34,905 nt of DNA from Alistipes sp. (GTDB lineage Bacteria; Bacteroidota; Bacteroidia; Bacteroidales; Rikenellaceae). Both the position numbers and the translations under genes were made by a program. The notes under the pieces are model-generated. The model saw nothing but the letters and a program-made list of their open reading frames with translations. It did no database searches and was not told where the DNA came from. Shown in pieces: positions 7,029-30,040 of the stretch (positions are counted from its first letter, which is position 1; each line of letters begins with the position of its first letter). The stretch is from positions 1 to 34,905 of the forward strand of contig JAGBFA010000002.1 of NCBI GenBank assembly GCA_017936685.1, written 5' to 3'.

Positions 7029-7553
7029 CTATTCATGCTGGATAATCTCAATTAATTCTCCCTTATCATTATAGAATTTTTCTGCGCCAACTTGAACGAA
7101 ATCAATTTCTGGACTTCCATCATCAAGGAGATATTCAAGCGATTCACTTCTAATAACGCCATTCTTATGAAAACATATACATTTGTACCTTAGTCCAGAA
7201 TGCAGGTTGGGGGCATAATTCTTGGCATTCAATAATGTATCGACTTTTACGAAATCAGTAAAGATATACCTTAATTGTCCGTCATCGTCCAATGCTATTA
7301 AATATTTATAATCACCATTATCATATTCAATAATGCCATCAAGCCGCATATTAAAATATGTTAACGCAATACCATCTTTTTTCCCATGTTTATAATTTTT
7401 AATGTACCTGTCACGTCCGTCTTCTTCAACCCACTGTCCATGTTTATTTCCTTGTTCGTCGTATCGATTAAGATACGATGTATCAGGTTGTTGTGCAATA
7501 ACAAAATGTGTGCAGACAAATGCAAATAGCATTGAAATAATCGTTCTAATCAT
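7029..7553 (-). CDS. exported YwqK/MORN-like protein, candidate immunity to the second Rhs tip
   Basis: A 174-residue protein with a Sec signal peptide (MIRTIISMLFAFVCTHFVIA, cleavage before QQ). The body has repeats of the MORN-variant type: YDEQGNKHGQWVEEDGR, then YKHGKKDGIALTYFN, and a late YNDKGELIEI. This pattern marks the YwqK antitoxin/immunity family, often encoded directly after polymorphic toxins. The gene overlaps the stop of the Rhs tip gene; ATG codons exist at 7562 and 7553, and the second gives a normal signal peptide length. It is AT-rich compared with the Rhs core. An exported immunity protein implies a toxin acting in the periplasm. No direct proof of pairing beyond order and overlap. 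Confidence 0.7.
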   Translation of the reverse strand: MIRTIISMLFAFVCTHFVIAQQPDTSYLNRYDEQGNKHGQWVEEDGRDRYIKNYKHGKKDGIALTYFNMRLDGIIEYDNGDYKYLIALDDDGQLRYIFTDFVKVDTLLNAKNYAPNLHSGLRYKCICFHKNGVIRSESLEYLLDDGSPEIDFVQVGAEKFYNDKGELIEIIQHE

Positions 7554-7555
7554 AA

Positions 7556-9517
7556 TCACCATAAATAATTAAAAAATGATACATATTGATCTCTGTTTGT
7601 CGGCTTTGCAACGCCGCTTCTCGATGGAATAACTCCGACAACATTATGTTTTTGCTGGTCATTGTCAAATAGCTTGATAAATTTGTCCCAATCTTTCATC
7701 CCTATTACAAAACATGCTTTTGAAATGAATTTACCATCTTTTCCTTTTCCTGTTAACTCGCCATTTCCGGCATGATGAATATTAGCACCTTCCACATAAT
7801 CTCTGCTCGGGTATTTCGGGTGCTGGTATCCTAATGATATACGGCTTTGAGTATCTCCAATATCGTGCATTCGTAATGCTGGATACTTTTCATTGTGCAT
7901 TCCAACCGTTGCTTCAATTAATTTCTCGGGAATAGTCGGGAACTCCTCTCTTGAAGGATGTGTACAAGCATCGAATTCAACTATCCTGCCATCGCTCAAA
8001 TAAACATAAGCTGTAGAAGAGCCTAAATTATAGTCACTATTCGGATCAAACGTGCCGTTGTCACTAAAAAAAATAGCCTGCTCATATAAACCGGATTTTA
8101 AATGTCCGTTATCATCATATGCATCGCTATCATCTACCCATTCAAATCCTGTATAGTATCGTTCGTCTTTTAAAGGATTAATATGCAGAGTAGGCCGCCA
8201 CGCCCTACCATCAGGATCGACCCAATTAATCGGATCCCCTCCACAATACATATACGGGCTGGTGTCGGAGAAATCACCCGATAGCGGATCATGCGACATG
8301 AAACTACCGTCAGTCACATACTGGAATCGTGCCTGCGAGTCGTAGAGGTTGTCGAGCCCGAAGGCTGTTTGCTGCTCCTTGCCGGTGTACTTGTAGTCTG
8401 CCTCCGTTATCGGAACACCAGCCACGGCATGCTGCGTGCCGTATGGCATGTAGTCGAATTCGGCCACCACGGTCGCATTGGGCTTTACGACGGCTCGTGT
8501 GCTGCCCAGATGATCTGTGATGTAGTATTGCGGCTCGTAGCCGTTCGATGTCTTGACTATCCTGCCTCCGGCAAAGGGTATGCTCTCCACCTCGGCACTG
8601 CTGCCGTTTACACTTAATCTCAATGAACCTAAATACTCGTACCCTTGCCCGGTTTCACCTATTGCCTGCACCTTCGTCCCGTCTGCAAGATAGATGTAGC
8701 TTGCTGTGGGACGTGTCACGCCTACTACGTATGTCTGTGCGCCGCTTCTCGGTGTACCGGTCTTGGTTATTATCTTCGGCAAGTTAAGATAATTATAGGA
8801 AATAAGCAAATTTTCTGCCTCTATTTTCGAGATATTGCCCATAATATCGTATTGATAACCATAGTCGGCAGTGATGTCGGCCGATATCTCGCTTGTCACC
8901 GACTGCTTGCGGTTACCGTCGTATGTGTATCGGTATTGCGTTCCGATGCGTGATCCGTTGTACCTTGTCAGCGACAGAATATTCGTGTTCTTGTCGTAGG
9001 AGATGTTGCGTTCGCCGTATTGCTTTGTAAGGAGCCGCTCGCCGGCTATGTACCTGCTGTCAACGAGGCGTCCGAGGCGGTCGTATGTGTAGGCGTATGT
9101 GTCGGCCTCGGCATTGCTTCCCCGCTTCCACGAAGTCTCGGCAATATTGCCGGCATACCTCGGCTGGGCATGTTTTGGCGAGAAGTACTCCAATGTCTGC
9201 TCGAAGATCGGCGGATCGGACTGTATAGGTATTATCGGTCTGTCGGGGAGTGTTATGGTCGGAGCTTTGAGGTCTTGGCCTGTATCTAAAACACCCCCGG
9301 GCTTTATGACTTTCAGCGAACATTTCTCAGTTCTTTTTTTCGTCAGCCAGCCCTGTATGTTGTATGTGTATGATGTCTCGATGTCGGACCCTGCCTTTAC
9401 CGTTTTGAGCTGCCCCAGCTCGTCGTAAGAGTACGCGATGTCGGTTATCTGCTCGCCGTCGACGGCCGTCGTAGGAGTATGCAAATTATGTATTACACGA
9501 TTATTTATAAGTTGCAT
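7556..9517 (-). CDS. 5'-truncated Rhs protein with an L,D-transpeptidase-like tip (silent or alternative tip cassette)
   Basis: 653 residues. Its first 420 or so are nearly identical to the C-terminal core of the Rhs protein encoded at 9914-14137, including YD repeats and the core ending in DPDGR. It lacks the signal peptide and N-terminal half. The homology begins abruptly at about 9472. The unique tip (215 residues, 7559-8203) is AT-rich and contains NIHHAGN followed about 20 residues later by SKACFVIG. That His/Cys spacing recalls L,D-transpeptidase-like folds or related peptidoglycan-active domains, so an envelope target is plausible but unproven. The ATG at 9517 lies within a perfect palindrome. 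It is most simply a stored tip that could recombine into the full gene. Independent expression is uncertain. Confidence 0.7.
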   Translation of the reverse strand: MQLINNRVIHNLHTPTTAVDGEQITDIAYSYDELGQLKTVKAGSDIETSYTYNIQGWLTKKRTEKCSLKVIKPGGVLDTGQDLKAPTITLPDRPIIPIQSDPPIFEQTLEYFSPKHAQPRYAGNIAETSWKRGSNAEADTYAYTYDRLGRLVDSRYIAGERLLTKQYGERNISYDKNTNILSLTRYNGSRIGTQYRYTYDGNRKQSVTSEISADITADYGYQYDIMGNISKIEAENLLISYNYLNLPKIITKTGTPRSGAQTYVVGVTRPTASYIYLADGTKVQAIGETGQGYEYLGSLRLSVNGSSAEVESIPFAGGRIVKTSNGYEPQYYITDHLGSTRAVVKPNATVVAEFDYMPYGTQHAVAGVPITEADYKYTGKEQQTAFGLDNLYDSQARFQYVTDGSFMSHDPLSGDFSDTSPYMYCGGDPINWVDPDGRAWRPTLHINPLKDERYYTGFEWVDDSDAYDDNGHLKSGLYEQAIFFSDNGTFDPNSDYNLGSSTAYVYLSDGRIVEFDACTHPSREEFPTIPEKLIEATVGMHNEKYPALRMHDIGDTQSRISLGYQHPKYPSRDYVEGANIHHAGNGELTGKGKDGKFISKACFVIGMKDWDKFIKLFDNDQQKHNVVGVIPSRSGVAKPTNRDQYVSFFNYLW

Positions 9518-9614: not shown

Positions 9615-9923
9615 TTAATTGCGATCCGTAGAATTTGTCTGCCTATTATTTGTAATCAATAAAATTATAAATAGCACAAAAATAGATATAAGGAATATCA
9701 ACTGAATTATCATATCGTCATATAAACTCTCAATAAAAGAGTGATATTGCCGCAGTGGTATTTTATTATCCAACGACGCTAATGATAACGAAACTCCTAT
9801 GCCATCATAATTATTAAACATGCCTATTCTAATATAATTGAGCACAATCAATATTATATTGACAATAATAATGATGATAATAAGTATCTTTGATATGTTA
9901 AATAAATTCTTTTTCACTTGCAT
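9615..9923 (-). CDS. small two-TM membrane protein, candidate immunity to the main Rhs toxin
   Basis: A 102-residue, strongly hydrophobic, AT-rich protein. One membrane helix lies at about residues 12-31 (KILIIIIIIVNIILIVLNYI) and another at about 72-91 (MIIQLIFLISIFVLFIILL), with a polar segment of about 40 residues between. It starts inside the last codons of the Rhs gene, so the two are translationally coupled, the usual arrangement of toxin and immunity. A membrane-embedded immunity protein fits a toxin acting on the envelope. No family is recognised. The assignment rests on position, overlap and composition. Confidence 0.65.
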   Translation of the reverse strand: MQVKKNLFNISKILIIIIIIVNIILIVLNYIRIGMFNNYDGIGVSLSLASLDNKIPLRQYHSFIESLYDDMIIQLIFLISIFVLFIILLITNNRQTNSTDRN

Positions 9924-12900: not shown

Positions 12901-14137
12901 ATGCGGTGTTGCTCAGATACGTGCCCTCTCCGCTCCATGCAAAGGGCAGATATGCCTCGGCCTCGCGTCCCTTGCCGTCGTATCGATGCAGCGATACGAT
13001 GTCGCGGCCGTCGGGAGCGGCAGCCACGGCTACGCTCTGCATCTGCCGTCCCAGTCCGTCGTAGTATGTGCGGTCGTCGACGTATGTGCTGCCGGCGGCA
13101 TCGGTTGCCGTTCGCACGCGAATGGATACGGGTGTGCGCATGTTGTATATGACGGTGTTGGAGGGGTATTCGTCGTTGCCGTCGAGCGATGCGGCCACAC
13201 GACGGTAGAATGTCATCACGGTGGGCTTGACCACCGTTGCGGTATACGATCCGCGACTTATTACCGTCCATGTCTCGTTGTCGGCAGATCGCTCCCAGCG
13301 ACACTGCGCAGCGGGCATGGTGGGCGACTGCACGTTGGTAAGACGTATCGTCGTCGCGTCGTCCTCATACTCCATGCCTATGGTGCCTGCGCTTGCAAGG
13401 GCTCGTATCTCCACCTCGTTGGAGTATGCCGTGGCGTAGCCGTCGTATGCTGCGCGGCGGTAGTACTCCGACACCTTGCCTATGGGCTGCGGCGTGTATA
13501 CTTCGCCCGTCGCACCCTCTATCGTCTGCCATGCCGAGCCTGTGCGCCTCTGCCACGAGTATGTTATATCGCGTCCGGGTACGCTCATTGCGGGCATCTG
13601 GGACCGTATCTGTCCGATCATCTGCCCCGGCTTGTAAGCCTCGTTGGAAGCGGATATAAGACCTCCTATGACACCGTTCAGGGCGGGATATACGTATGAG
13701 AGCTCGCATTGGCAGAACTGCTCCACGTACTGCGACGTGCCGGAGGACGAGGAATCGACCACCTCGGGTCCGGAGAGTCCGGGCAGCCCACCCGCAGGCA
13801 CGCGCAGGGTGAAGCCGAACGACACCGTGCCTTCGGTTCGTGCGCCGTCGGGACGGTGACGGAATGTTATGACGGCCGTGGCCGAGGTGGGGAACTCGAT
13901 CTTTTCGATATGTTCGGTGTCGTATGTTACGGCGTTGCGCCGTATGATGTCGGGTACGGTGGATACGCCGCCCGAGGTGTTGTCGTATGTGACGGTCACC
14001 GAGCGTCGGCCGCCGTTATTGGGTGCGGTGCATGTCTGGGGCTGGCACTTGATGGCCACCTGCTGCGCTGCGGCACGCGCAAAGCCTGTGATCGACAGCA
14101 CGATCACCGACAAGATAATGCTTATATGGAGTTTCAT
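9914..14137 (-). CDS. Rhs protein with Sec signal peptide and permuted papain-like C-terminal toxin tip
   Basis: A 1407-residue secreted Rhs protein. The signal peptide covers residues 1-24 (ends ARAAAQQ). A beta-rich N-terminal region follows, then a Bacteroidota Rhs entry domain (DDRTYYDGLGRQMQSVAV). YD repeats (RYDGKGREAEAY, YDGLGRVTAV, YDSRGRVTAE) build the shell. The Rhs core ends at DPDGR, residue 1199. The 208-residue tip is AT-rich. It has LGHAFVTVG (His1212), then a YTYGRYG stretch, then NNNCVTMTIN (Cys1328). The His-before-Cys order resembles permuted papain/NlpC-P60-like enzymes (YiiX/LRAT group), which act on peptidoglycan or lipids. Start ATG overlaps the preceding gene's stop (ATGA). 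The first half of a normal Rhs shell is probably supplied by that upstream gene. Confidence 0.85.
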   Translation of the reverse strand: MKLHISIILSVIVLSITGFARAAAQQVAIKCQPQTCTAPNNGGRRSVTVTYDNTSGGVSTVPDIIRRNAVTYDTEHIEKIEFPTSATAVITFRHRPDGARTEGTVSFGFTLRVPAGGLPGLSGPEVVDSSSSGTSQYVEQFCQCELSYVYPALNGVIGGLISASNEAYKPGQMIGQIRSQMPAMSVPGRDITYSWQRRTGSAWQTIEGATGEVYTPQPIGKVSEYYRRAAYDGYATAYSNEVEIRALASAGTIGMEYEDDATTIRLTNVQSPTMPAAQCRWERSADNETWTVISRGSYTATVVKPTVMTFYRRVAASLDGNDEYPSNTVIYNMRTPVSIRVRTATDAAGSTYVDDRTYYDGLGRQMQSVAVAAAPDGRDIVSLHRYDGKGREAEAYLPFAWSGEGTYLSNTAYKQDKYYKQRYSATSTRYAYTHTEYEASPLDRPLSVMQPGAEYRAGDGHAAEQAYGANVSGEVLRIVMSTQLNNAGGIQVKGYHPAARLYKTTATDEDGAVTETFTDSYGREILSRRVIAEGDTADTYRVYDNMGRLRWIISPEGSDRLVAGASYAINCDMAKKYCFRYLYDGMGNVCKAYIPGRDEPDITAYDSSGRPEASSTAAMRSDGIRDTYLYDGLGRVTAVQTSATTGALRDNMLYLYDSYSSSPEWLGHGFRPVEGVVAQSDILAVPRGMKTHERVYEVYDKSSTAAARSSLRTFYYDMRGRIVQSVETSPMGRTVRVSCKYDYTGNPLIRHEQYTIGGTTTVVVYTYAYDSRGRVTAETTAVDGEQITDIAYSYDELGQLKTVKAGSDIETKYTYNIQGWLTRKSTNTNPLKPRLASINSGLIIDRDSLIMPPGGIAESLQKNIFEQTLEYFSPKHAQPRYAGNIAETSWKRGSNAEADTYAYTYDRLGRLVDGRFISGGLLLTKQYGERNIAYDKNTNILSLTRYNGSRIGTQYRYTYDGNRKLSVTSEISADITADYGYQYDIMGNISKIGAENLLISYNYLNLPKIITKTGTPRSSDGATYVVGVTRPTASYIYLADGTKVQAIGETGQGYEYVGSLRLSVNGSSVDIESIPFAGGRIVKTSNGYEPQYYITDHLGSTRTVVKPNATVVAEFDYMPYGTQHAVAGAPIAEADYKYTGKEQQTAFGLDNLYDSQARFQYVSDGSFMSHDPLSGTFPDTSPYMYCGGDPINRVDPDGRITRIYLRTNNLGHAFVTVGEGKNTVVYTYGRYGAVGSSSAITSGRYTPVGEGVLMRKKGNDAVEYLDEFLDYESIEIYEVPDVSEKAVAKFYDDLIYNSIHGPSDKKKDTYGDPNAYVIDDYNLLNNNCVTMTINSINVNETIIENQFYEIFTMYGESSIEYMINSPGELSSYLNSHTGLNPHTGHSIISISNPQEFIKNLIDELICK

Positions 14138-17100
14138 AGATTCTCAGATTCGGATACGGGTTTATGTATAAATTCGAAGTTAATGTCAAGGCCGAGATCG
14201 TAGTTGTATTCTTGCAGTCGTCCCATGGGATCATCGGTGCGTATGAGCCGTCCTGCGGTGTCGTACAGGTAGGTGTATGTGCGTCCTGCCACGTCGGTGT
14301 GGCGCGTCATGCCCACGCACGGCTTGTAGTCGTACGTGTCGACATATATGCCCGTGATTTGACGCACGGCCGCCTCCTGCGCGGCACTCAGGGCCCCGCC
14401 GAGCGGGTCGTTGCCCGTGATTGAGAGCGCGGCCTTCAACGCCTCGTATGTGGTGCCTGCGGCACGCAGCACGGGATAGCGTCCGCCGTAGCCCCAGATG
14501 TAACATGTCACCACGCCCGCGGCATCTTCGATCTGCGTGGGGTTTCCGTGACTGTCGCGCGCCTGATACTGCACCGCGGTGCGGTATGCCAGCTGCGGCA
14601 GTCGGGGGGATATGGCCGGCTCGTCGAGCAACGCCTGCTTCACGCAGCGAGGTCTGAGTACTCCGCCGAAGATGTCATACTCGTATTTTACGGCCGATGT
14701 GATATATTGCGATGCGGCCGTGGCCTGTGGGCTGCCGGCATAGAGTGTCCTCACCGAGGCAGGATAGTCGAGCATGTGAGACGTGGAGTCGCTCTGGGGG
14801 AGAGTCTCGTGATAGTATGATGTCAGCGTCCGGAGTATCGAGTTGTCGGGCGCGATGACTGTCTGGCTGTTTATCTGCCCCAGGTCGTTATAGGCGTATC
14901 TGGTCACGGTAGATATGGAGTCGCCGCCGAAGTAATCCGTCGATCTCTTCTCCACAAGACGGTAGTCGCCCGTGTAGAGCTTGACGGAATAGGCATATAT
15001 GCCGCTCAGTGTCACGTATGTCGAGTAGTCGACCTCCTCGCCTGCATTGTGCTCGGCATACTTCATGCGTTCGATCCTTACCCGATTGTGCGAGGCATCG
15101 TAATAACCCACGCCGCGCAGCTTGCCGCGGCGATAGTGGTGCGAGTTGGGCTGACGCATGATGTTGTTGATGTAATTAAGCGGGAGATGGGTATCCGCCG
15201 AGTCGGCTATTTGTGTGCTGTTCTGATCCTCCGGCTCGTCGGGATATTGCAGATAGTCGGTATAGCAGTACTCGGTGTACGATCCGTCCGAGAGTATCTC
15301 CCTGACTCTGCTGTAACCTATATGCACGCGGTCGAATGTCGATGACGGGATATTCAGATAGGGATTGCGGAACTGGAATGAGGGGCTGTATTCGAGCTGG
15401 TATCGCGGGAACGACGATACGATGCCCGTATCGTACTCGAATTCGCGTATTACCGGCTCGCCGTATGCGTCGCAGTCGGTGATGCGCCGTATGCGCACGC
15501 CGCCCGTAAGGTCGCTGCCGTTGAAGAAACTCTTGTAGGAGTGGAGCCGCGCAAGGTAGGGTGTAGTGTTCTCGGCCGAAGATATGCTGTCGAGTTCTAT
15601 GGGCAGCCTGTCGTCGGACGCATACAATATTCTTTTGCGTCGCAAGATGATGTATTTTGCTTTGTTGGCCTCGTATGCGAACTCGGTGTAGCCTCGTGTG
15701 GGATATGTTATCCGTTTCAGACAGCCCGAGAGGGCATACTTCCAGTCGGGGTTGTTGAATGTACTGTCTTGTATGATATTCTCGTTGCGATCACAGTCGA
15801 CATTCATGGGACAATATGCGTTATAGTGGTTGCCCGTGCCGTTCTGATAACCCCAGAAATCGACATCGGAGGTCGTCAGACCGGCAAATGACTTGTCTTG
15901 ATAGTATGACATTCGATAGCTGCCCAACTCATGCAGATTGATGCTTGCCAGCAGTGTCCGGTTGTCCTTTATGTTATACGAGAACGTGCATTGGCGTATC
16001 TGCTCGTTATCCGAGGTTACGGTTATCGTGTCTATCCGATACAGATTCTGCACGATACGGGCATCTTCCACCATAGTCTCCGGGATATTGTCAGACTGCT
16101 CCTTGTCGACATCGTAGCAGCCCTTGCGGCCGTAGTCGAATTCGATCTCCACATTGCAATCCTCGACATCGATCTTGTCGAGATACGAGGTGCGCACCAC
16201 GCTGACATGGCGCATGTGGTCGCGAGAGCCGTCTTTGGCAATCTTGTTGGGTCCCACGGCGAATGTCATCACGTAGAACGGATTGTTGGTATCTACGGTT
16301 ATCGGATTCACATTCGACAGCAGTTCAACCGGCTTATACGTAAACGTTACGCGCCGGCCGTTGGGTGCGACGATCTCTTTGAGGTTCCATGTGACGATAG
16401 GGTATTGCGATTCGCCGCTGACCAAGGGATCGCGTTCGAAATCGAACTGCCCCTCATATCCGAAATTACCCTTTATATGACGCTCTACGGCATTGTTGTC
16501 ACCGCCGAAAACGTACTTGTATCCGTCCGCCGTGCGAACAGTAAAGCCGGATATATGACCGTCTTCCCTGTTTGGCGTGATCTCGTATGTACCGTGGCTG
16601 CCGTCGGTGCCGTAGACGCATATCTCGCCGCGGCCGTTGAAGTGGAACCTGCCCGAGTGCCCCAGAAAGTTGAAGTAGTAGAGATCCGACTCGGTCTCTA
16701 TGTAGCATTTCTCTGTGCCGTCAGCTTCTTTGTAGCCTATTAAATACCTGTCCTTGTATTGCGATATGTCGCCGTGCTCCATGTTAAACAGTTCTTGGTC
16801 ATCGAACTTTGTGAATTCTGTTGCGAGAAATCCCACGCATACGCCATCAGCTCCATTATAGTCGTCCGGCAGTCCGCGTACCTCGCGCGTGATCGAGCCG
16901 CCGCAGTTGAGAAACCAGTTCAGACCCAGAATACCCGTCTGACGCTGCGGCTGAAAGCCCGTGGAGGCGTAGCTCGCCGAGATGGGAATGTCGAAGTCGT
17001 TGTCGGAGTAGGTGTAGAGGGGCACATCGACCCGTGCCGTGCCCGTATAGTAGTCGACGGGCGTTGCGCCGTAGCGCATGAATGACCATGTCTGAGGCGT

Positions 17101-17626: not shown

Positions 17627-18049
17627 ATGAAACACAATCACACGACACGACACCTTATCTATCTGCGAGGCTTCTCGCTGCCCGAACTGCTGGTGGTCCT
17701 GGTCATTATCGGCATTTTAGTCTTGATTGCCCTGCCCAACCTCATGCCGCTTATCTCGCGTGCCAAATCTTCCGAAGCGCAGCAGCAGCTTACCTACCTG
17801 CACACGTTGCAACGTTCGCACTTCTACACCTCGTCGCGCTACTGCTCCTCGCTCGATGAGCTGGGCTTCGAGCAGTCGACGCTGGTTACCGACGGCGGTC
17901 AGGCCAACTACCGCATCGAGGTGGTCGAAGCCTCGGAGCAGGGCTTCCGCGCCACGGCCACGGCCGTAGTGGATTTCGACGGCGACGGCATCTACAACGT
18001 CTGGGAGATCGACCAGGACAAGACGCTGCGCGAGACGGTCAAGGACTGA
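17627..18049 (+). CDS. type II secretion/type IV filament major pseudopilin (GspG-like)
   Basis: A 140-residue prepilin. The class III signal RGFSLPELLVVLVIIGIL is complete: cleavage after Gly, Phe at +1, Glu at +5, then a long hydrophobic helix. The globular part ends with VVDFDGDGIYNVWEID, a Ca-binding-like Asp-rich loop typical of GspG-type major pseudopilins. After processing by the prepilin peptidase encoded next, it would polymerise into the periplasmic pseudopilus. The start at 17627 follows a good promoter; an earlier in-frame ATG (17531) would precede that promoter. It heads the operon. Confidence 0.85.
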   Translation: MKHNHTTRHLIYLRGFSLPELLVVLVIIGILVLIALPNLMPLISRAKSSEAQQQLTYLHTLQRSHFYTSSRYCSSLDELGFEQSTLVTDGGQANYRIEVVEASEQGFRATATAVVDFDGDGIYNVWEIDQDKTLRETVKD

Positions 18050-20998: not shown

Positions 20999-21009
20999 AA
21001 TAAACGATT

Positions 21010-21763: not shown

Positions 21764-22348
21764 ATGAAAACCAGATTTTACCTATTATCGATTTTATCGG
21801 CACTTATGGTGTCGCTTATGAGCGGTTGCGCTTCATGGAGGCAGAGCCTGCAATCCACCGGCAATATCGATGTCGCCATCGATAACTGCATAACCGATTT
21901 CTGTCATACTTCGAGACTGCGCAAGGCGGGCGACATATTCGATATATCATACTATGACGAAAAACCGGATATCTATGAGATTGTCATAATGTTGGCCATC
22001 GACAAAGTATATCCTGTCTCGGACAAAGGTTCCGATCCCAAAGACCCGTGTATCCCCAACCGGTACAGGATCTGCGGCGACAAACTGTTCTATTGGAGTA
22101 TCCCGGGAGATGTGATTCCTGACGAGATGATAGATATTCTGCAACGATACGATCATATTGATCTCGATTGGCGAGCGACATATTACGATATACCACCGTG
22201 TACGTTTGATGATGGTGCCGTTGAAGTGCATTACTATGTATGTCGCAGCGATTTGACCAACTATAAGAAATGGAGTTATCGTCATATTGTCAAACATCGC
22301 TTCCTACGTCGCAGAAATCCTCCGACAGTCAGATGCAGGATCGAATAG
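21764..22348 (+). CDS. lipoprotein paralog 1, candidate immunity to the JAB tip
   Basis: A 194-residue lipoprotein: hydrophobic leader and lipobox LMSGC (Cys22). The mature part has WRQSLQSTGNIDVAIDNC, a central DKVYPVSDKGSDPKDP, and a basic C-terminal end (KHRFLRRRNPPT). No known family is recognised. It begins ten bases after the JAB-tip stop, the normal place for an immunity gene, and is followed by a near copy of itself. A lipidated, periplasm-facing immunity protein fits an envelope-acting toxin. It is equally possible that it is an unrelated accessory lipoprotein. Confidence 0.7.
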   Translation: MKTRFYLLSILSALMVSLMSGCASWRQSLQSTGNIDVAIDNCITDFCHTSRLRKAGDIFDISYYDEKPDIYEIVIMLAIDKVYPVSDKGSDPKDPCIPNRYRICGDKLFYWSIPGDVIPDEMIDILQRYDHIDLDWRATYYDIPPCTFDDGAVEVHYYVCRSDLTNYKKWSYRHIVKHRFLRRRNPPTVRCRIE

Positions 22349-22445: not shown

Positions 22446-23033
22446 ATGAGAAACAGATTTTACCTATTATCGATTTTATCGGTACTTGTCGTGTCGCTTA
22501 TGAGCGGTTGCGCTTCATGGAGGCAGAGCCTGCAATCCACCGGCAATATCGATGTCGCCATCGATAACTGCATAACCGATTTCTGTCATACTTCGAGACT
22601 GCGCAAGGCAGGCGATATATTCGATATATTATACTTTGAGGAAAGTCCGGATCTTTATAAGATTGTAATAATGGTAGCCCACGACAAAGTATATCCGGTC
22701 TCGGACAAAGGTTCCGATCCCAAAGACCCTGGTATCCCCAACCGGTACAGGATCTGCGGCGACAAACTTTTCTATTGGAGTATCCCTGAAGATGTGATCC
22801 CGGACGAGATGATAGGTATTCTGCAACGATACGATCATATCGATCTCGATTGGCGAGCGACATATTATGATTTACCTCCGTATACGATTGACGATGGAGC
22901 CCTTGTCATAAGGTACTATGTCTGTCGCGACGATCTGACCAACTATAAGAAATGGAATTATCGTCATATTGTCAAACATCGCTTTCTACGTCGCAGAAAT
23001 CCTCCGACTATTAGATGCAGGACCGAAAGGTAA
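22446..23033 (+). CDS. lipoprotein paralog 2 (tandem duplicate)
   Basis: A 195-residue lipoprotein that duplicates the preceding gene. The leader, lipobox (LMSGC), and first 65 or so codons are nearly identical at the DNA level, as is the segment around DKGSDPKDP. Differences cluster in the middle (LYFEESPDLYKIVIMVAHDK here against SYYDEKPDIYEIVIMLAIDK) and near YYDLPPYTIDDGALVIRYY. Local divergence on an identical frame suggests recent duplication followed by selection or gene conversion, as expected of immunity variants. A spacer of about 100 bp separates the two genes. Confidence 0.7.
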   Translation: MRNRFYLLSILSVLVVSLMSGCASWRQSLQSTGNIDVAIDNCITDFCHTSRLRKAGDIFDILYFEESPDLYKIVIMVAHDKVYPVSDKGSDPKDPGIPNRYRICGDKLFYWSIPEDVIPDEMIGILQRYDHIDLDWRATYYDLPPYTIDDGALVIRYYVCRDDLTNYKKWNYRHIVKHRFLRRRNPPTIRCRTER

Positions 23034-23153
23034 TCGGGACAGAGAAATAATAATAACTAAACACTAAGCTGTCGATTCCTTGATACACAGGGAATTAGGA
23101 GACCGTGCGCGTTTTTGTGCGAGTGCTGAATCTGTAAAATACTAACCAACAAT

Positions 23154-25037
23154 ATGATACGATTAATATACTTGTCGTTGCTTTCACTATGGCTGCTGTT
23201 TCCTCTGCGTGCGGCGGCACAACAGCCCGATTCTGTACGTCTGTCTGGCATCGAGTCACGGCTTGCGATGCTTGTGGGTCGCGACTCGACGTTCTGCCGC
23301 GAGGTCGACATCACCTCGGGGCGGCTGTCGCTATCGGAGCTTCTGCGCAATATAGCCCGCGCCAGCGGTGTGAACCTCTCCGTGCGCAGTGTTGACAATA
23401 TCCCCGTATCGTGCAACTTCCGCCGTGCCCGTGTCGACGATCTTGTGCTGTTCCTGTGCCGCGAGTACCGGTTGGATATCGCCGTTGCGGGCAATATCCT
23501 CTCTATCTTTCCTGCGGCCGCAGCCCCCTCTCCGTCGCCCGATCCCGACATCGTGTACCAGGCCTCGGACTCTACGCTGAGCTATGATCTGCGTGGTGAT
23601 CGTCTGATCGACGTCGTTAAGAAGATCGTGCGTCTGTCTGACCGCAACATCATCGTCCCGGAGCCGCTCTACGATAGCAAGGTCTCGGGCTACGTGCGCC
23701 GCATGCCCTTTTCCGAGGCTATGGGCACGCTTGCCGCAGTCAACGGCCTGCAATCGGCGTGCGACGCGGACGATGTCTGGACCGTGTGGCGCGAGGATCC
23801 CTCCTCGCAAGAGGGCCGCCGCTCGGCCGCGCCCTACCTGCGGCAGCGGCAGTTCACGCCCGACGAGCTGCATGTGGATTCGCTGGGCCGCATCACGGCA
23901 CATATCTCGCGCAGCGACGTGCAGGAGGTTATCCTCGATCTGTGCGACGAGCTGAAACTCGACTATCACTTCCTCTCGCCCATCAACCTCACGGCGGGCA
24001 TCTGGGTCGACGACACGGATTTCGAGACGCTTCTCTCGGTGCTTCTCAAAGGCTCTCCGTACAGCTACTACACCGAGCGCGGCATCTGGATCTTCGGCGC
24101 GGCCGCCACGGACCGCCTCACCTCGACCTGCGTGCTGCCGATGGTCTACCGTGCCGTCGATCATGTCGAGCAGATCATACCCGAGGCCCTGAGGCAGAAC
24201 GTCGCCGTGAAGACCTTTGCCGACCTTAACGCCCTGATCCTCTCGGGCGACCGGCGCGACGTGGCACGCGTGGAGTCCTTCCTGCGCTCGGTGGACAAGC
24301 CCGTGCCGATGGTAACGATGGAGATCCTTATAGCCGACATCACCAAGAGCAGGATCCACGAGATAGGTCTCGAAGCGGGCATCGGCGAGTCGGCCGTCCG
24401 GACCTCGGGCACGCTGCTTGGCGGTGTCGACATGACCTTCAGTGCCTCCGCCGTCAACAAGCTGCTGCAACGCGTCAGCGGCACGGTCAACCTGGGCCGC
24501 GTCACGCCCGAGTTCTACCTCAGCCTGCAAGCCTTGGAGGAGGACGGCACGATACGTCTGCTCTCCACGCCTAAGCTGTCGACCTTGAACGGCCACGAGG
24601 CCGTCCTCACCAGCGGCGAGACGCAGTACTACAAGGAGGTGCAGAACAACTACTACGGCACGCAGAACCCCATCTCGTCGGAGTCGTACCAGTGGAAGTC
24701 GGTCGATGCCAACCTCTCGGTCAAGGTCACGCCCTACGTCTCGGAGGACAGGCACATCACCCTCGACATAGAGTTCGAGCAGACGGAGTTCACCGACCGC
24801 AAGATCGGCGATGCGCCGCCCGGCACGGCCACACGCAGCTTCCGCTCGATCGTCAAGGTGCAGAACGAGGAGATGGTGCTGCTGGGCGGTCTCGACCGCA
24901 ATACGTTGGAGAACTCCTCGCGCGGTGTGCCTCTGCTGGCGCGCATACCCGTCATCAAGTGGTTCTTCGGCAAGGAGAAGCGCAACAAGGTAGAACGCAC
25001 GCTCAACATCTTCATCAAACCCACTGTCATCGAATGA
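23154..25037 (+). CDS. outer-membrane secretin (GspD-like)
   Basis: A 627-residue secretin with a signal peptide (MIRLIYLSLLSLWLLFPLRA, cleavage near AAAQQ). Several N-type ring domains follow: LSLSELLRNIARASGVNLSV and LIDVVKKIVRLSDRNIIVP, then RDVARVESFLRSVDKPVP just before the channel. The C-terminal secretin domain spans about residues 380-627, with LLSTPKLSTLNGHEAVLTSG and VPLLARIPVIKWFF. It would form the outer-membrane channel for the pseudopilus system. It ends shortly after the secretin domain, without an obvious pilotin-binding tail. Its stop overlaps the next start. Confidence 0.9.
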   Translation: MIRLIYLSLLSLWLLFPLRAAAQQPDSVRLSGIESRLAMLVGRDSTFCREVDITSGRLSLSELLRNIARASGVNLSVRSVDNIPVSCNFRRARVDDLVLFLCREYRLDIAVAGNILSIFPAAAAPSPSPDPDIVYQASDSTLSYDLRGDRLIDVVKKIVRLSDRNIIVPEPLYDSKVSGYVRRMPFSEAMGTLAAVNGLQSACDADDVWTVWREDPSSQEGRRSAAPYLRQRQFTPDELHVDSLGRITAHISRSDVQEVILDLCDELKLDYHFLSPINLTAGIWVDDTDFETLLSVLLKGSPYSYYTERGIWIFGAAATDRLTSTCVLPMVYRAVDHVEQIIPEALRQNVAVKTFADLNALILSGDRRDVARVESFLRSVDKPVPMVTMEILIADITKSRIHEIGLEAGIGESAVRTSGTLLGGVDMTFSASAVNKLLQRVSGTVNLGRVTPEFYLSLQALEEDGTIRLLSTPKLSTLNGHEAVLTSGETQYYKEVQNNYYGTQNPISSESYQWKSVDANLSVKVTPYVSEDRHITLDIEFEQTEFTDRKIGDAPPGTATRSFRSIVKVQNEEMVLLGGLDRNTLENSSRGVPLLARIPVIKWFFGKEKRNKVERTLNIFIKPTVIE

Positions 25038-25969
25038 AACTGTTGGCCCATATCCTCTCTTCCGTTCAGGTGTTGGAGGTCACGCTTACTGCCGACAGCC
25101 ACAGCGTCGCGGCATGGCACTGCACGGCCGGCGGCGAGATAACACCCGCGCCGTATGACCCGGCATCGGCAGCCAGGAACTTAGTGGCAGTTACCGTCAG
25201 CGGCCACGGCACGATCTTCAAACCGGCCGACTCCGACGTCGCCGCCCGCGTGCGCCGCGACAGCGATACCTTCCTTTGGAGCGAGCACGACGGCGATGTA
25301 GGCTTCGTTCGCCGCGAGCGGCTGCAAGATGTCTTGTCGGCACTTGCCGCGGCAGAGATACACCCCCAGCGGATCGCGATAGGCCTTGCCCCGACAACCC
25401 TCGCCCGGACACTCTTCGACTCCTTGCGCTGGCGCGATATGCTGCGACCTACGGCCGAGGGCTCGGCATTAGCGCAGCGCGCCGTGCGCCGCACGGGACT
25501 GCCCGTGCTGGGGCTGTTCCTCTGCCTGCTGACGGCCAATGTCCTGCTCGCCCCGAAGGTGGGCACACGGCGGCAGATGTTGCATGCCCGGCTCGCTGCC
25601 CGCGAGCGCACGGCCTCTGCCGCGGCCGATGTCACCGCACGCCAGCGGACACTGCTTGCACAGTTCGATGCCCGCCCGGAGGTGGCACGCGCCCTGCTGT
25701 GCGACCGCATCGCCGCCGCCGTGCCCGAGGGTGTAGTGCTTACGCAGCTTGCCGTCGAGCCGCTCGCCCGGCGTTTCGAGGCGGATAAGCCCTTGCAGCG
25801 TCATGAGCGTACGGCCGTGGTCGCGGGCACGGCACCCATCGCGGGCGATGTCTCGGCATTCGTCGAGCGGCTTACTGCCGAGATGTGTTGCCGCACGGTG
25901 CGGCTTACCAATGTCGAACGGGAACGCGACGCTGCGCGGCTCGTGTTCCGCATAGAGATAGGGCTATGA
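25034..25969 (+). CDS. GspL/PilN-like inner-membrane assembly protein
   Basis: A 311-residue bitopic protein. The N-terminal 150 residues are cytoplasmic (VLEVTLTADSHSVAAW resembles the start of an actin-like PilM/GspL fold, but degraded). A single transmembrane helix lies at about 155-174 (LPVLGLFLCLLTANVLLAP). A periplasmic coiled coil and a ferredoxin-like domain with VPEGVVLTQLAVEPL follow, as in PilN. It overlaps the secretin stop (ATGA) and the next gene. Such proteins couple the ATPase to the periplasmic platform. Family assignment is by topology, motif and gene order. Confidence 0.7.
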   Translation: MKLLAHILSSVQVLEVTLTADSHSVAAWHCTAGGEITPAPYDPASAARNLVAVTVSGHGTIFKPADSDVAARVRRDSDTFLWSEHDGDVGFVRRERLQDVLSALAAAEIHPQRIAIGLAPTTLARTLFDSLRWRDMLRPTAEGSALAQRAVRRTGLPVLGLFLCLLTANVLLAPKVGTRRQMLHARLAARERTASAAADVTARQRTLLAQFDARPEVARALLCDRIAAAVPEGVVLTQLAVEPLARRFEADKPLQRHERTAVVAGTAPIAGDVSAFVERLTAEMCCRTVRLTNVERERDAARLVFRIEIGL

Positions 25970-26481
25970 AGCTGCCATACGAATATCGCGGCGTGTGTCT
26001 TCTCGCGTTGCTCTTCGTGGTGCTGCCGTGGGCCGGGTGGCGTTTCGCGCTTCACGACACCTGCGCGACATGGCGTGAGTGCCGACACCTTGAAAGCAGA
26101 CTCGACGCGCTCGGCCCGATACCTGCCGCAGATGCTGCCATGCCTCGTGCCGCCGCTATGCCCGAGCTGATCCTCTCGGGCGCGCTGCTCGACTCTGTGC
26201 GGCGCATGGCACCCTCGGGCGTGCAGGCCACGGGATACACGCCCGCCACCACGCTGCGGCAGGACGGCATCGAGATCCGCACGGCACAGCTGACACTTGC
26301 GGATTCATTCGCCGGTCTGCTGCGCACGGTCGACATGCTCGAACGACGCCTTACGGAGTGCCGACTGCAATCCGTCGAGTGGCGCACGACGACAGAGTCT
26401 CGCACCCGCCGCGTGCAGCTCACGGCGACGATATACATACAGCAACTGATAATGAAACCCGAAACACCCTCCGAGCCATGA
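25966..26481 (+). CDS. GspM/PilO-like inner-membrane assembly protein
   Basis: A 171-residue protein with one N-terminal transmembrane helix (about residues 10-27, VCLLALLFVVLPWAGWRF), a short coiled segment and a small periplasmic domain (GIEIRTAQLTLADSFAGLL). This is the usual GspM/PilO layout: a partner of the preceding GspL/PilN-like protein. Both ends overlap the neighbouring genes by ATGA. No catalytic residues are expected. The name rests on layout and position rather than on clear sequence identity. Confidence 0.65.
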   Translation: MKLPYEYRGVCLLALLFVVLPWAGWRFALHDTCATWRECRHLESRLDALGPIPAADAAMPRAAAMPELILSGALLDSVRRMAPSGVQATGYTPATTLRQDGIEIRTAQLTLADSFAGLLRTVDMLERRLTECRLQSVEWRTTTESRTRRVQLTATIYIQQLIMKPETPSEP

Positions 26482-26939
26482 AATCGCGTTGGACGACACG
26501 GCTGCTGCTCGCGGCCGCAGTGACTGTGTGGAGCATTGTGGCATGGCGTATCTTTGCGCCGTCCGAGCCTGCCGCACCACAGATGCGCCCGACGGCCGAT
26601 ACTGCACCGGTGCAACTCTGTACTGCCGACACACTGCGGCTGGACTATCCCGATCCCTTCCTGCGAGATAAGGCTACACCCAAGCCGGCATCACGACCCA
26701 CGGTGCGCCCGCTGCCGCTGCCGAAAAAGAGTGCGCCGCAGCGCGACCGCACGCCGATAGTACACCTGGCCGCGGTGACGGCCGACGGACAGACGCTCCA
26801 CGTGCTGATGATCGGCGAGGTGCAGTACGAGCTTCGCCGGGGCGAGGCGGCCGAGGGCTGGCGTCTGACAGGCTCCGACAGCGACTCGCTCTACCTCGAA
26901 CACGAGGGGCTGATCTACGGTGTAAAACGATGCCAATAG
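26478..26939 (+). CDS. GspC/PilP-like inner-membrane to secretin linker
   Basis: A 153-residue protein: an N-terminal transmembrane helix (LLLAAAVTVWSIVAW), a proline-rich linker, a YPDPFL motif (the DPF hallmark of PilP and related HR-domain proteins), then a C-terminal beta domain (LHVLMIGEVQYELRRGEAAEGW). GspC and PilP link the inner-membrane platform to the secretin. It overlaps the GspM/PilO-like stop and is followed immediately by the next gene. Confidence 0.65.
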   Translation: MKSRWTTRLLLAAAVTVWSIVAWRIFAPSEPAAPQMRPTADTAPVQLCTADTLRLDYPDPFLRDKATPKPASRPTVRPLPLPKKSAPQRDRTPIVHLAAVTADGQTLHVLMIGEVQYELRRGEAAEGWRLTGSDSDSLYLEHEGLIYGVKRCQ

Positions 26940-28160
26940 ATGAAACACACAGCAACACACCTCTCGGGTGCCGTCCTGCCGACGGTGGTGGCCGTCACGT
27001 TAGTCATGCTCACGGCCATGCTGGGGCTTATTGCACTGTGGCAGCAGCACACGCTGCTCTACGCCCGCACCCAGCGGCTGCGACAGGCGCGCGCCGATGT
27101 CGCCTCCGCCGTGACGCTCTGCCTGCGACACCCCGACCGGGAGGCCTTGACCGCCGCCGAGGGCTACCTGCTCTACGACTCGCTGCCGCAGTCGTGCATC
27201 GTCGCGCGGCGCGAGCGGTGGGGACTCTACGGGCTGCTGCATGTGGCCTCGGCCGACTCCATCGTCTCCACCTGCCGCCTGGTGGGTGTCGAGCCCGATG
27301 CCCGGCACACGCTCTTCTATGCCGACCACCGCGCCGCCGTGACCCTTGCGGGCGATACCCGTCTGCACGGCGTGCTGCACCTGCCGCAGAACGGACTCGC
27401 ATACGGCCGTATGGGCATGACCTTCTTCTGCGGCCGGCAGATACCGCACACGGCCATACGGCGTGCCTCGGCGGCTCTGCCCGCACCCTCGGCCGAGGCC
27501 GTAGCACACATCGATTCGCTGTTTGCCGTGGCCGCAGATGTCCCGCTGTCGGAGTCCCTGCCCGACAGCCTCGGCGCAGGCTTTCGCGACCGGACGCTGC
27601 TGCTGCGGCTCGGTGCGGCCGAGATCGGCGGCTGCATGCTGCATGGGCGCATCATGCTCGCGGCCGACGAGCTGCGCATAGACTCCACATGCCGCATGGA
27701 ACATACGATCGTTGCGGCACGCAAGATCACCCTCGGCCGCGGAGCGCGCATCACGGCACAGCTCATAGCACGCGATACGGTCGTCGTCGAGCCGCACGCT
27801 GCGCTGGAATACCCGTCGGGCATCTATGCAGGCCGTTATGCCGAGCTGGGCGATCACGCGACGGTGGACGGCTGCGTCATAGTGCGCGATACGGCCGTGA
27901 GGACGACCACGACGGCATCATACCGGCAGTGTCGCACGGCACGCGTGCGGGGATTGCTCTATGTCGACGGCGCGGCACAGGTGCAGGGTATCGTCGCGGG
28001 CTGCGCCGTGCTCCGGCAGGCCGTCTGCTTCTCGCCGCAGGGGTACTACCCCGACATGCTGTGCGATCTGACACTGCTCGAAAATCCTGCTACGGCACAG
28101 CCTCTGTGGCTCGCGGGGTGCGACAGCGTGCCCGGAAAGGAGGTGCTATGCGTCGAGTAA
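26940..28160 (+). CDS. GspK/PilX-position membrane protein with beta-helix-like repeats
   Basis: A 406-residue protein with one N-terminal hydrophobic segment (LPTVVAVTLVMLTAMLGLIA), no prepilin-type Glu+5 signature, and a large C-terminal part. The region LHGRIMLAADELRIDST through ITLGRGARITAQLIARDTVV and YAELGDHATVDGCVIVRDTA shows short regular turns, like bactofilin or other polymer-forming beta-helix proteins. Its place before the minor pseudopilins fits GspK/PilX, which caps the pseudopilus tip, but the domain is unusual. It starts directly after the upstream stop and overlaps the next gene by 13 bases. Function not recognised. Confidence 0.6.
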   Translation: MKHTATHLSGAVLPTVVAVTLVMLTAMLGLIALWQQHTLLYARTQRLRQARADVASAVTLCLRHPDREALTAAEGYLLYDSLPQSCIVARRERWGLYGLLHVASADSIVSTCRLVGVEPDARHTLFYADHRAAVTLAGDTRLHGVLHLPQNGLAYGRMGMTFFCGRQIPHTAIRRASAALPAPSAEAVAHIDSLFAVAADVPLSESLPDSLGAGFRDRTLLLRLGAAEIGGCMLHGRIMLAADELRIDSTCRMEHTIVAARKITLGRGARITAQLIARDTVVVEPHAALEYPSGIYAGRYAELGDHATVDGCVIVRDTAVRTTTTASYRQCRTARVRGLLYVDGAAQVQGIVAGCAVLRQAVCFSPQGYYPDMLCDLTLLENPATAQPLWLAGCDSVPGKEVLCVE

Positions 28161-28510
28161 CGGCCGGCAGGCTGCGAGCCGCATCGCTCGTGGAGGCCGT
28201 CGTAGCGTCGATAGTCCTTCTGGTAGTATTCGCCGCGACGATGGAGCTGCTGCCGCGCCTGAGCGTGCATGACGACGATGCCGAGGCTGTGGCCGAGGCG
28301 GAGTACCGCGCGGCAGGTGCTTTTGTCAAATACTCGTCGGGGCTGTGGCCGGAGGGCACATACGTCGAAAGCTGCGATGGCGGCCGGACGACGGTGCGCG
28401 TGGAGCCCTACCGCGACTACGGCGACATGCAGCTGATAACCGTTGTCGCGAGCGTCGACGGCAGCACGAAACAGGTTGTACACAAACAGGTGGTGGTATG
28501 CGGAGAGTAA
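28148..28510 (+). CDS. minor pseudopilin 1
   Basis: A 120-residue prepilin-like protein. RAASLVEAVVASIVLLVVF matches the class III signal with Glu at +5 if cleavage falls after the first Ala. The usual Gly at -1 and Phe at +1 are missing, as is common in minor subunits. A short globular domain ending KQVVHKQVVVCGE follows. It overlaps both neighbours by 13 bases. It would be part of the tip complex (GspI/H-like). Confidence 0.75.
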   Translation: MRRVTAGRLRAASLVEAVVASIVLLVVFAATMELLPRLSVHDDDAEAVAEAEYRAAGAFVKYSSGLWPEGTYVESCDGGRTTVRVEPYRDYGDMQLITVVASVDGSTKQVVHKQVVVCGE

Positions 28511-29007
28511 AACACGGCCTGCGTGCCTCGACACTCGTGGAGACATTGGTGATGATGATCGTGGCCGGTATTGTCTTTCTGGCCGCTATGGAGGCCTTGA
28601 CGCTTCTCGGGCGGCTTGCGGCACGGCACATGACCGTGATTGTCGAGACGCGGCGGCAGAGCGAGGGTATACACCTCCTCGGGCAGCTGCTGGCCACGGC
28701 CGACAGCATCGGCGGCGGACAGGATACGCACGATGACATGATACTCCTCTACCATGCGGGACGGCAGAGGGAGCTTGTCGTGCGCGACTCGTCGGTGCTG
28801 CTCACCGCGGGAGCTTTCTGCGACACGCTGCTGCGCGGCGTAGGAGGCATGCGGCTTATGCAATACGCTGCCGAGGCCGATACGGTAGAGATCGGGACCT
28901 GCCGGCATACGCTGAAATTCCATGTGCGGCGACCGGCGCGGGAGCTGTACCAAACGGATATTATGAAGATCGAAAACGGATACGGATATGAAGAAGAACG
29001 GCCATAA
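28498..29007 (+). CDS. minor pseudopilin 2 (GspJ-like)
   Basis: A 169-residue prepilin-like protein with RASTLVETLVMMIVAGIVF (Glu at +5, cleavage after Ala) and a larger globular domain. Size and order fit GspJ. It overlaps the preceding pseudopilin by 13 bases and GspF by 20 bases. It has acidic and disordered-looking ends (GYGYEEERP). Confidence 0.75.
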   Translation: MRRVKHGLRASTLVETLVMMIVAGIVFLAAMEALTLLGRLAARHMTVIVETRRQSEGIHLLGQLLATADSIGGGQDTHDDMILLYHAGRQRELVVRDSSVLLTAGAFCDTLLRGVGGMRLMQYAAEADTVEIGTCRHTLKFHVRRPARELYQTDIMKIENGYGYEEERP

Positions 29008-30040
29008 GCTCTCCGACGCACGCCGCCAGACGCTCTACGCACAGCTGCACGCGCTGCTCACGGCGGGGCTCGACTTCTCGGCGGCATTCCGGCTGCTTAT
29101 AGACAGCGAGGAGGAACGGCGCACGAAGGCTTTGATAGAGGAGATATACGCTGCCGCCGTGCGCGGTCTGCCTCTGGCCGAGGCCATGCGCGACAGCGGT
29201 GCATTCAGTGCCATGGAGTGTGGCGTGATAGGCATCGGCGACAGGACGGGACGACTCACCCAGACGCTCGACTTCCTGCACGACTATTACCGCAAGCGTG
29301 CCGCGCAGCGGCGCATGATCTCCTCGGCCGTGAGCTACCCGGCGGTTATCCTCGCCGTGGCAGTAGCTGTGGTGGCCTTCATGCTCGCCGTGGTGGTGCC
29401 TATGTTCGAGCAGGTGTACGCGCGTATGGGCGGCGAGCTGCCTGCGCTCACGCGGTGGATCATCACCGTGTCGCGGGCGTTTCCCTCTTGCGCCGCCGTC
29501 ACGCTCACCGCGGCGGCAGGAGCGTATCTGCTCTACCGCATGAACAGGCAGCGCGAGGAGGTGCAGCGCAGGCGTGCATGGCTCGTGCTGCGAATACCCT
29601 TCGCGGGTATGATCGTGCGAAAGAACATGCAGGCGCACTGCTGCAAGCTGCTATGCCTGCTGTGTGCCTCGGGCATACCTCTGCTGGCGGGCATCGACAT
29701 GCTGCGCGATGTCATGACGTTCTACCCCTACCGGAAGTCGCTGGGAGAGATCGCACGAATGCTCGAACGGGGAGAGACCCTCGCCGCTGCGCTGGCACGC
29801 TATCCCGAGCTGTACGACCGCAGACTGGCGGCCATAGTCCGTGTGGCCGAGGAGACCAACCGCCTGCCCGAGATGCTGCGGCAGCAGGGCGATGCGCTCA
29901 CGGCGGAGATGGAGTATGCCATAAGACGCATGGGAACAATGCTCGAACCGATGCTCATAATGCTTGTCGGGGTGCTCGTGGCGGTGATACTCGTAGCCAT
30001 GTACATGCCAATGTTCTCGCTCGGAAGTATCATGGGGTAA
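28988..30040 (+). CDS. type II secretion inner-membrane platform protein (GspF/PilC family)
   Basis: A 350-residue protein with two T2SSF domains. The first contains LHALLTAGLDFSAAFRLL and GVIGIGDRTGRL; the second contains LCLLCASGIPLLAGIDML and IVRVAEETNRLPEML. Each is followed by hydrophobic helices, and the last helix lies at the C-terminus (MLIMLVGVLVAVILVAMYMP). It is the polytopic core that links the ATPase to pseudopilin assembly. Last gene of the operon. A weak inverted repeat (30044-30050 with 30074-30080) follows, without a T-run. Confidence 0.92.
   Translation: MKKNGHKLSDARRQTLYAQLHALLTAGLDFSAAFRLLIDSEEERRTKALIEEIYAAAVRGLPLAEAMRDSGAFSAMECGVIGIGDRTGRLTQTLDFLHDYYRKRAAQRRMISSAVSYPAVILAVAVAVVAFMLAVVVPMFEQVYARMGGELPALTRWIITVSRAFPSCAAVTLTAAAGAYLLYRMNRQREEVQRRRAWLVLRIPFAGMIVRKNMQAHCCKLLCLLCASGIPLLAGIDMLRDVMTFYPYRKSLGEIARMLERGETLAAALARYPELYDRRLAAIVRVAEETNRLPEMLRQQGDALTAEMEYAIRRMGTMLEPMLIMLVGVLVAVILVAMYMPMFSLGSIMG

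Follow-up and report, generated by a model that had tools for sequence, protein, structure and literature searches.

Recurrent association of a type IV filament-like secretin machine with two-part Rhs toxin genes in Bacteroidota

Introduction

In excerpts of the survey by Denise et al., the type II secretion system (‘T2SS’) of Bacteroidetes groups with the type IVa pilus (T4aP) and is raised as a possibly novel secretion system (PMC6668835), and excerpts of work on Cytophaga hutchinsonii name little cargo for it beyond a role in cellulose use (PMC5553014), a text that lists t2s genes for C. hutchinsonii and Flavobacterium johnsoniae and in which ‘Rhs’ has 0 occurrences. In Flavobacterium psychrophilum CC-ST10, a 35-kb cluster described in part of PMC5808330 carries T2S genes in two opposed loci together with two genes whose products carry structural domains known from the Yersinia entomophaga ABC toxin. 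Here, a 34 905-nucleotide stretch of DNA from Alistipes sp. (GenBank assembly GCA_017936685.1, contig JAGBFA010000002.1; termed the window, at its full length) was analyzed, in which a secretin-dependent filament gene cluster lies beside genes for Rhs-type toxins.

Rhs repeats, an Rhs core and a variable C-terminal tip characterize both the BC component of Tc/ABC toxins and the Rhs effectors of the type VI secretion system (T6SS). Polymorphic toxins with a signal peptide were assigned by Zhang et al. (2012) to a ‘T2SS/Sec-dependent’ class by default, Table 1 in the excerpts of that paper giving no signature neighbors, and Tox-JAB-1 was paired there with the lipoprotein immunity protein Imm65 in Bacteroidetes (PMC3482391). 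The F. psychrophilum cluster and this 2012 toxin class, as far as the excerpts of both papers extend, are partial precedents in print. The excerpts of PMC4793230 and PMC5561996 hold nothing on a link between a secretin machine and Rhs proteins, and no statement of a general linkage was found in literature titles and abstract openings, a coverage to which subscription papers are mostly external.

The window shares with the Cytophaga t2s system the GspD/E/F and pilin set, a likeness at the level of gene content, and it differs in that the known role there is cellulose utilization whereas the neighbors here are Rhs toxins. The close GspE/PilB and GspD/PilQ scores and the PilA-like pilin reported below agree, as model scores rather than as a tree, with the T4aP placement of Denise et al. 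T2S genes beside Rhs/ABC-toxin-like genes are common to the window and the F. psychrophilum island; the latter, however, concerns one species, and section 17 of PMC5808330 neither claims a link to Rhs secretion in general nor mentions tips or immunity genes. A signal peptide, Rhs sequence and an exchangeable tip, as well as a JAB tip with a lipoprotein, are shared with the ‘T2SS/Sec’ class as excerpted, which is marked by the signal peptide alone, whereas a specific secretin machine is linked here. The likeness to Tc and T6SS Rhs proteins lies in the repeats, the core and the variable tip, and in a PDB sequence search RhsA matched Tse5 weakly (E 0.0085) and RhsB gave no match. In contrast to those proteins, two polypeptides are present here, each with a signal-peptide-like N terminus, and no PAAR, VgrG, SpvB or TcA domain was found in the window proteins scanned.

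The association between the secretin machine and Rhs genes is real and recurrent. Judged from sequence, and with a probability of roughly 0.64, the type IV pilus-like Bacteroidota ‘T2SS’ would export two-part Rhs toxins as its characteristic cargo.

Results

Co-occurrence and proximity of the machine and Rhs genes

Co-occurrence was studied in 295 evenly drawn Bacteroidia genomes, the window genome included, using GspE profile A1 (E ≤ 1e-50) and the RhsB family DUF6443 (E ≤ 0.001). GspE was found in 47 genomes, the machine here having the homologous GspD/E/F/G set that marks the Bacteroidetes ‘T2SS’, and DUF6443 was found in 87 (75 over the cut-off); 40 genomes had both, 7 had only GspE, 47 had only DUF6443 and 201 had neither. 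DUF6443-Rhs proteins accordingly occurred in 40 of the 47 GspE genomes vs 47 of the 248 others (odds ratio 24, Fisher p 3e-18, uncorrected for phylogeny). With one vote given to each genus, 33 had both, 4 GspE only, 35 DUF6443 only and 84 neither, corresponding to DUF6443 in 33/37 genera with GspE vs 35/119 without. Of another 48 gspE genomes, 43 contained the family (41 over the cut-off). GspE over the cut-off and DUF6443 were both absent from 36 further genomes of the window's own genus.

The distance between the two was measured for the 77 DUF6443 matches listed, which come from 37 of the 40 double-positive genomes; contig C16, a duplicate, was left out, and a frame matched in pieces was counted once. 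Eighteen of these fell within 25 kb of gspE, where 0.9 would be expected, and 17 of the 76 matches listed did so without the window genome. Proximity of ≤ 25 kb was seen in 16 genera of 12 families. The best 80 of 147 related gspE loci (78 of them from Bacteroidota; stretches of 3–21 kb with a flank of ≤ 10 kb on each side) were compared with 29 control windows of 10–20 kb from the contig starts of gspE-bearing genomes (40 taken, 11 too short), and rhsA/rhsB profiles detected Rhs sequence above 40 bits in 54/80 gspE loci vs 1/29 controls. Because some of these 80 loci had themselves contributed sequences to the profiles, the test was repeated with the window RhsA, RhsB and RhsC proteins alone as queries, giving 32/80 vs 1/29 at E 1e-4 (p 1e-4) and 20/80 vs 1/29 at E 1e-8 (p 0.012): smaller counts than those of the profiles, in the same direction. 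Chance adjacency is ruled out by co-occurrence, proximity, genus counts and the window-protein test, and the survey for co-occurrence that the earlier note on this DNA had proposed bears the association out widely.

Gene order and RhsB phylogeny

In Alistipes montrealensis, gspF, rhsA and rhsB are consecutive, separated by 25 and 11 bases, and the same order is found in Zagget8 and G064 at spacings of 12 to 49 bases. In Zagget8 the operon is surrounded by three Rhs pairs, in one of which rhsA is split into two frames, and an Odoribacter genome has an Rhs pair at the cluster end. Nine further genomes, picked for DUF6443 near gspE, contained rhsB in 9/9 and rhsA above 100 bits in 7/9 (13 and 19 bits otherwise); in some of them rhsA-rhsB stands between parts of the gsp cluster, and elsewhere the pair precedes, lies within or follows the gsp genes. 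DUF6443 was near gspE in genomes G062, G063, G064, G065 and G067 and apparently not in G068, G069 and G070. In Flavobacterium and Aquimarina, Rhs-core frames of ~ 340 aa lie a few kb from gsp genes (L082:3715-4773, L086:3499-4515, L088, L092, L093, L103 and L106), those of L082 and L086 differing in their tips.

A tree of 40 RhsB sequences (25 linked to the machine, 15 unlinked; a quick search with long branches) placed linked RhsB in several clades, the linkage label requiring 5 changes, at least 3 of them imposed by supported branches; linkage therefore does not go back to one inherited synteny. These data bear on the proposal that the filament machine and the Rhs toxins serve separate functions and only share the same genomic islands, with no substrate relation. 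In favor of it, neither is present in the 36 genus-mates searched, the GC content of the window is uneven with a tRNA-Leu at 5772, and the F. psychrophilum T2S cluster with ABC-toxin-like genes is, in the excerpts of PMC5808330, a lineage-specific 35-kb island. Set against this, the two are found close together in 16 genera of 12 families, in varied arrangements that include co-directional gspF-rhsA-rhsB with gaps of 11–49 bases, and linked RhsB does not form one clade. Shared mobility without a substrate relation is considered unlikely.

Export signals and alternative secretion routes

N termini were classed by a simple rule devised for this analysis, with several Met starts tried and Rhs frames below 400 aa excluded. 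Signal-peptide-like N termini were found on 37/41 linked RhsA and 27/32 linked RhsB proteins, and on 4/79 GspE and 2/65 GspF proteins. The T6SS marker VipB (PF05943) was found in 0/38 genomes, with a model that may miss the Bacteroidota T6SSiii.

Several observations weigh against Rhs export by this machine. The earlier note had named as a refutation related genomes that carry the same operon with no Rhs genes nearby, and such cases exist in part, since 26 of the 80 gspE loci have no Rhs sequence above 40 bits within the ≤ 10-kb flank and 7 of the 47 gspE-bearing class genomes have no DUF6443. Unlinked RhsA (13/15) and RhsB (15/16) carry signal-peptide-like N termini as often as linked ones. 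Rhs pairs without GspE occur in 15 class genomes that had been selected by their strong DUF6443 matches (rhsA in 14/15) and in the same-order genomes G038, G049 and G054, and exclusive dependence of the pairs on the machine is ruled out by these two sets. The machine is not the only Rhs route because such free-standing rhsA-rhsB pairs occur in genomes without GspE; the note's reading of Rhs toxins served by a type II-like machine is partly supported, the co-localization being upheld and export through the secretin being a putative and non-exclusive route. Linked sequences also tend to group together on the RhsB tree (5 label changes vs a mean of 12.2 after shuffling, with 0/500 shuffles as low), and a secretin channel offers little room for an Rhs shell. 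Mutants of C. hutchinsonii in t2s are impaired on cellulose (PMC5553014, excerpts), and GldM, a marker of the type IX secretion system (T9SS), was over the cut-off in 15/15 of the gspE-negative Rhs genomes.

Among same-order genomes, DUF6443 was present without a clear gspE in 5/24 (4 over the cut-off). One same-order genome with no GspE over the cut-off contains a row of several Rhs-core frames (L298, G055:C78:211-10122).

The GldM result raises the alternative that the Rhs pairs leave the cell by the T9SS or some other general route while the filament machine does other work, such as secretion for polysaccharide use. Excerpted literature lends to this that TANFOR, another class of Bacteroidetes polymorphic toxins, has been proposed as T9SS cargo (PMC7073777) and that the Cytophaga machine serves cellulose use (PMC5553014). 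The marker (TIGR03517, one marker only) was, however, found in 0/11 operon-bearing genomes, namely the window genome G000 and G061-G070, which are the genomes of loci L035-L038 and L040-L045 and have titles naming Alistipes, Odoribacter, Bacteroidales and one Bacteroidetes. DUF6443 was present in 10/11 of these GldM-negative genomes. In addition, the window Rhs tips gave no match to a T9SS sorting domain. GldM was over the cut-off in 17/19 other gspE genomes tested. The occurrence of DUF6443 pairs in GldM-negative gspE genomes and in GldM-positive gspE-negative genomes indicates that Rhs pairs can occur with either machine; on one reading, either the T9SS or the filament machine offers an outer-membrane exit. 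Export by the T9SS or a general route in place of the filament machine is regarded as quite improbable.

Organization of the filament cluster

The features of the window are collected in Table 1. All of the elements named in the earlier note, which described a near-complete secretin, GspE, GspF and pseudopilin cluster divergent from an Rhs locus, are present.

Table 1. Features of the window with the basis for each assignment.
Feature	Position	Strand	Basis
Putative immunity gene of rhsC tip	7029..7562	-	Directly downstream of tip; signal-peptide-like N terminus; no family above cut-off
rhsC, truncated displaced Rhs cassette with own C-terminal tip	7556..9517	-	TIGR03696 1.8e-12; no signal peptide
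102-aa membrane protein, putative immunity of rhsB tip	9615..9923	-	Position; no confident family
rhsB, 1407 aa	9914..14137	-	DUF6443 PF20041 4.2e-29; Rhs core TIGR03696 4.1e-11; variable tip; signal-peptide-like N terminus
rhsA, 1024-aa Rhs partner	14134..17208	-	PF05593 1e-7, TIGR01643; signal-peptide-like N terminus
Major pilin/pseudopilin	17627..18049	+	PF07963, TIGR02532; N-methylation motif
Short A24-like prepilin peptidase candidate	18071..18529	+	GxGD motif by eye; relatives' homologues in same place
GspE-type assembly ATPase	18526..19956	+	PF00437 1.3e-119
Transglutaminase-like lipoprotein	19958..20998	+	PF13369 weak, E 0.037
Mini-Rhs with signal-peptide-like leader, last part of Rhs core and JAB-like tip	21010..21753	+	TIGR03696 model end E 0.001, DUF4329 E 0.0017, both below cut-off
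Lipoprotein 1, putative immunity	21764..22348	+	Lipobox from translation; no Pfam match
Lipoprotein 2, putative immunity	22446..23033	+	94% aa identical in L035 despite different tip; no Pfam match
Secretin, GspD/PilQ-like	23154..25037	+	PF00263 1.3e-37
GspL/PilN-like	25034..25969	+	PF05137 E 0.003, below cut-off
GspM/PilO-like	25966..26481	+	By position; relatives' homologues in same place; no family match
Small GspC/PilP-like protein	26478..26939	+	By position; homologues in relatives; no confident family
GspK/PilX-like minor pilin	26940..28160	+	Homologues in relatives; no confident family
Minor pseudopilin (start approximate)	28148..28510	+	Prepilin-like N terminus from translation; homologues in relatives
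Minor pseudopilin (start approximate)	28498..29007	+	Prepilin-like N terminus from translation; homologues in relatives
GspF/PilC-like platform protein	28988..30040	+	PF00482 9.6e-45

The secretin, ATPase, platform protein and pseudopilins are held in a single cluster, as in a T2SS. The Pfam scores of GspE, the secretin and GspF lie far above the cut-offs, several smaller parts being named by position and homologues only, and the prepilin peptidase candidate matched no family in Pfam/NCBIfam-type scans. The curated NCBIfam T2SS cut-offs were missed by GspE (472/630 bits), GspD (136/351), GspF (221/424) and GspG (33/89). Type II and pilus models scored close together and below cut-off, with 472 bits for TIGR02533 and 456 bits for the PilB model on the ATPase, and 136 bits for GspD and 117 bits for PilQ on the secretin. 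The best model for the major pilin was of the PilA type (62 bits, GspG 33 bits; both below cut-off). No PilT or second T2SSE/PilT-like ATPase was found over the PF00437 cut-off in the 88.8%-complete source genome besides GspE and its contig-overlap copy, which makes a retracting pilus less likely.

The Rhs locus and exchange of tips

Homologues of rhsA stand beside gsp clusters in relatives. The Rhs proteins of the window have the repeats and the conserved Rhs-associated core before a variable tip (PF05593, PF20041, TIGR03696) that define Rhs polymorphic toxins. The earlier note had given the Rhs proteins Sec signal peptides; signal-peptide-like N termini, read from translations, are present on RhsA, RhsB and the mini-Rhs, and rhsC has none. 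Positions 8204-9208 of rhsC are 91.5% identical to 10541-11548 of rhsB, the identity ending before the tip, a pattern that resembles known Rhs tip displacement. A 44-bp palindrome (95%) at 9515-9558, between rhsC and the small membrane protein gene, may be a terminator or a recombination hairpin.

The presence of a mini-Rhs gene and two lipoprotein genes between the ATPase and secretin genes, as described in the earlier note, was confirmed, and a transglutaminase-like lipoprotein gene missed by that note lies there too. Lipoproteins 1 and 2 have 90% nucleotide identity. With regard to Imm65, a lipobox and a YxC motif are present as judged by eye, and a Pfam scan of the two proteins and the copy in the related locus L035, with a model set that may lack Imm65, returned 0 families up to E 10. 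The L035 mini-Rhs has nearly the same leader followed by a different tip, Toxin-JAB1 (6.3e-13), after which come another putative immunity gene and then the counterpart of lipoprotein 2. Tip exchange is thus seen between the mini-Rhs proteins of the window and L035, which share the leader, and a displaced cassette in rhsC, whose core resembles that of rhsB while the tips differ.

As a recurrent trait, the position of tip genes between gspE and gspD proposed earlier found little following, L035 being the only case besides the window among the 80 gspE loci. Insertion of the mini-Rhs as a general part of the operon is ruled out, gspE adjoining gspD in L036 and L037. Rhs-core frames stand directly after gspE in L043, with no gspD within the stretch examined. 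In L079 (Flavobacterium gawalongense), a transglutaminase-like gene and then a signal-peptide mini-Rhs gene with a different tip lie between the pilin gene and gspE; this mini-Rhs matched no Pfam or NCBIfam family and scored only 35 bits with the rhsB profile, its Rhs core being recognized by eye.

Homologues of the transglutaminase-like lipoprotein were found in L079 (31%) and G064 (52%), both within such clusters, and Cys144 and His170 are invariant across the three aligned sequences. A role for the lipoprotein in maturation of the mini-Rhs would be a guess. In L035 the corresponding frame is interrupted (L035:7905-8944; a 267-aa frame with the remainder in another frame), by either an assembly error or a pseudogene.

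The Rhs pair might also serve the filament system as a structural or adhesive component, for example a shell displayed at the pilus tip and not released, and the location of rhsA-rhsB inside the gsp cluster in several genera resembles that of an accessory subunit. Tip exchange, the displaced cassette and the JAB-type domain with lipoprotein neighbors instead fit toxin-immunity pairs, leaving a structural role very improbable.

Assembly and genome context

The window is contig C13 of source genome G000 (2.28 Mb, 88.8% complete), and the closest named relatives of its GspE carry Alistipes labels. Contig C16:1-23299 of the same genome duplicates window positions 11606-34905 at 99.98%, and the metagenome-assembled genome of L035 matches positions 12032-21151 and 22380-30040 at 88–91% identity with order conserved. 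An assembly chimera is ruled out, both C16 and L035 repeating the arrangement. A second genomic copy of the operon is likewise ruled out: the apparent second secretin is the same DNA, because C16 repeats the window over this length.

GC content is uneven along the window and the tRNA-Leu occupies 5772-5854. Just downstream of it, an 86-bp direct repeat (5987-6072 and 6209-6293, 94%) may be an island end. At the contig end a direct repeat with an offset of 143 bp and 98.8% identity spans 34594-34905 and is also matched in C16. The left flank was compared with ten stretches (from 8 genus-mates, G061 and A. montrealensis), with U32 and RlmI together in 10/10 and the chromate genes in 9/10, and the right-flank window genes were matched in 0/10, so that the island boundary could not be placed. 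In the sister genome G061, a 1206-aa unannotated frame adjoins gspF (G061:C23:17989-21609; L209/L210), where the window has short frames only.

Discussion

The observed gene content, linkage, N termini and tip exchange would fit the following route, whose shell, passage, target and immunity steps we infer. The cluster would be the Bacteroidota ‘T2SS’, acting as a secretin-dependent type IV filament machine. RhsA and RhsB would be exported separately by Sec and may assemble in the periplasm into a shell enclosing the C-terminal toxin tip, and the pseudopilus would then drive the Rhs complex out through the secretin. The mini-Rhs proteins, with signal peptides of their own, could be small additional cargo of the same machine. 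The neighboring lipoproteins and signal-peptide proteins are putative immunity proteins that would guard the producer's periplasm, and JAB-type tips together with exported or lipidated proteins of this kind fit a danger point for the producer in that compartment. The tips would presumably act on rival bacteria.

A wider proposal is that Bacteroidota possess a toxin-secretion machine of their own, which arose from the T4aP independently of the proteobacterial T2SS and whose cargo, ancestrally and for the most part, is an Rhs shell toxin of two subunits put together in the periplasm; small mini-Rhs effectors with signal peptides would be accompanied by a dedicated maturation factor, the transglutaminase-like lipoprotein. 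This proposal is put forward tentatively, at somewhat short of even odds.

If true, a separate T4aP-derived Rhs machine would answer what the Bacteroidetes ‘T2SS’ mostly serves. Should Rhs export by the linked machine hold, a large class of Bacteroidota toxins would leave the cell by a filament-driven secretin, without a T6SS or T9SS. The linkage within 25 kb in 16 genera joins two questions, the cargo of the Bacteroidetes ‘T2SS’ and the exit of signal-peptide toxins, both of which can be tested in laboratory strains.

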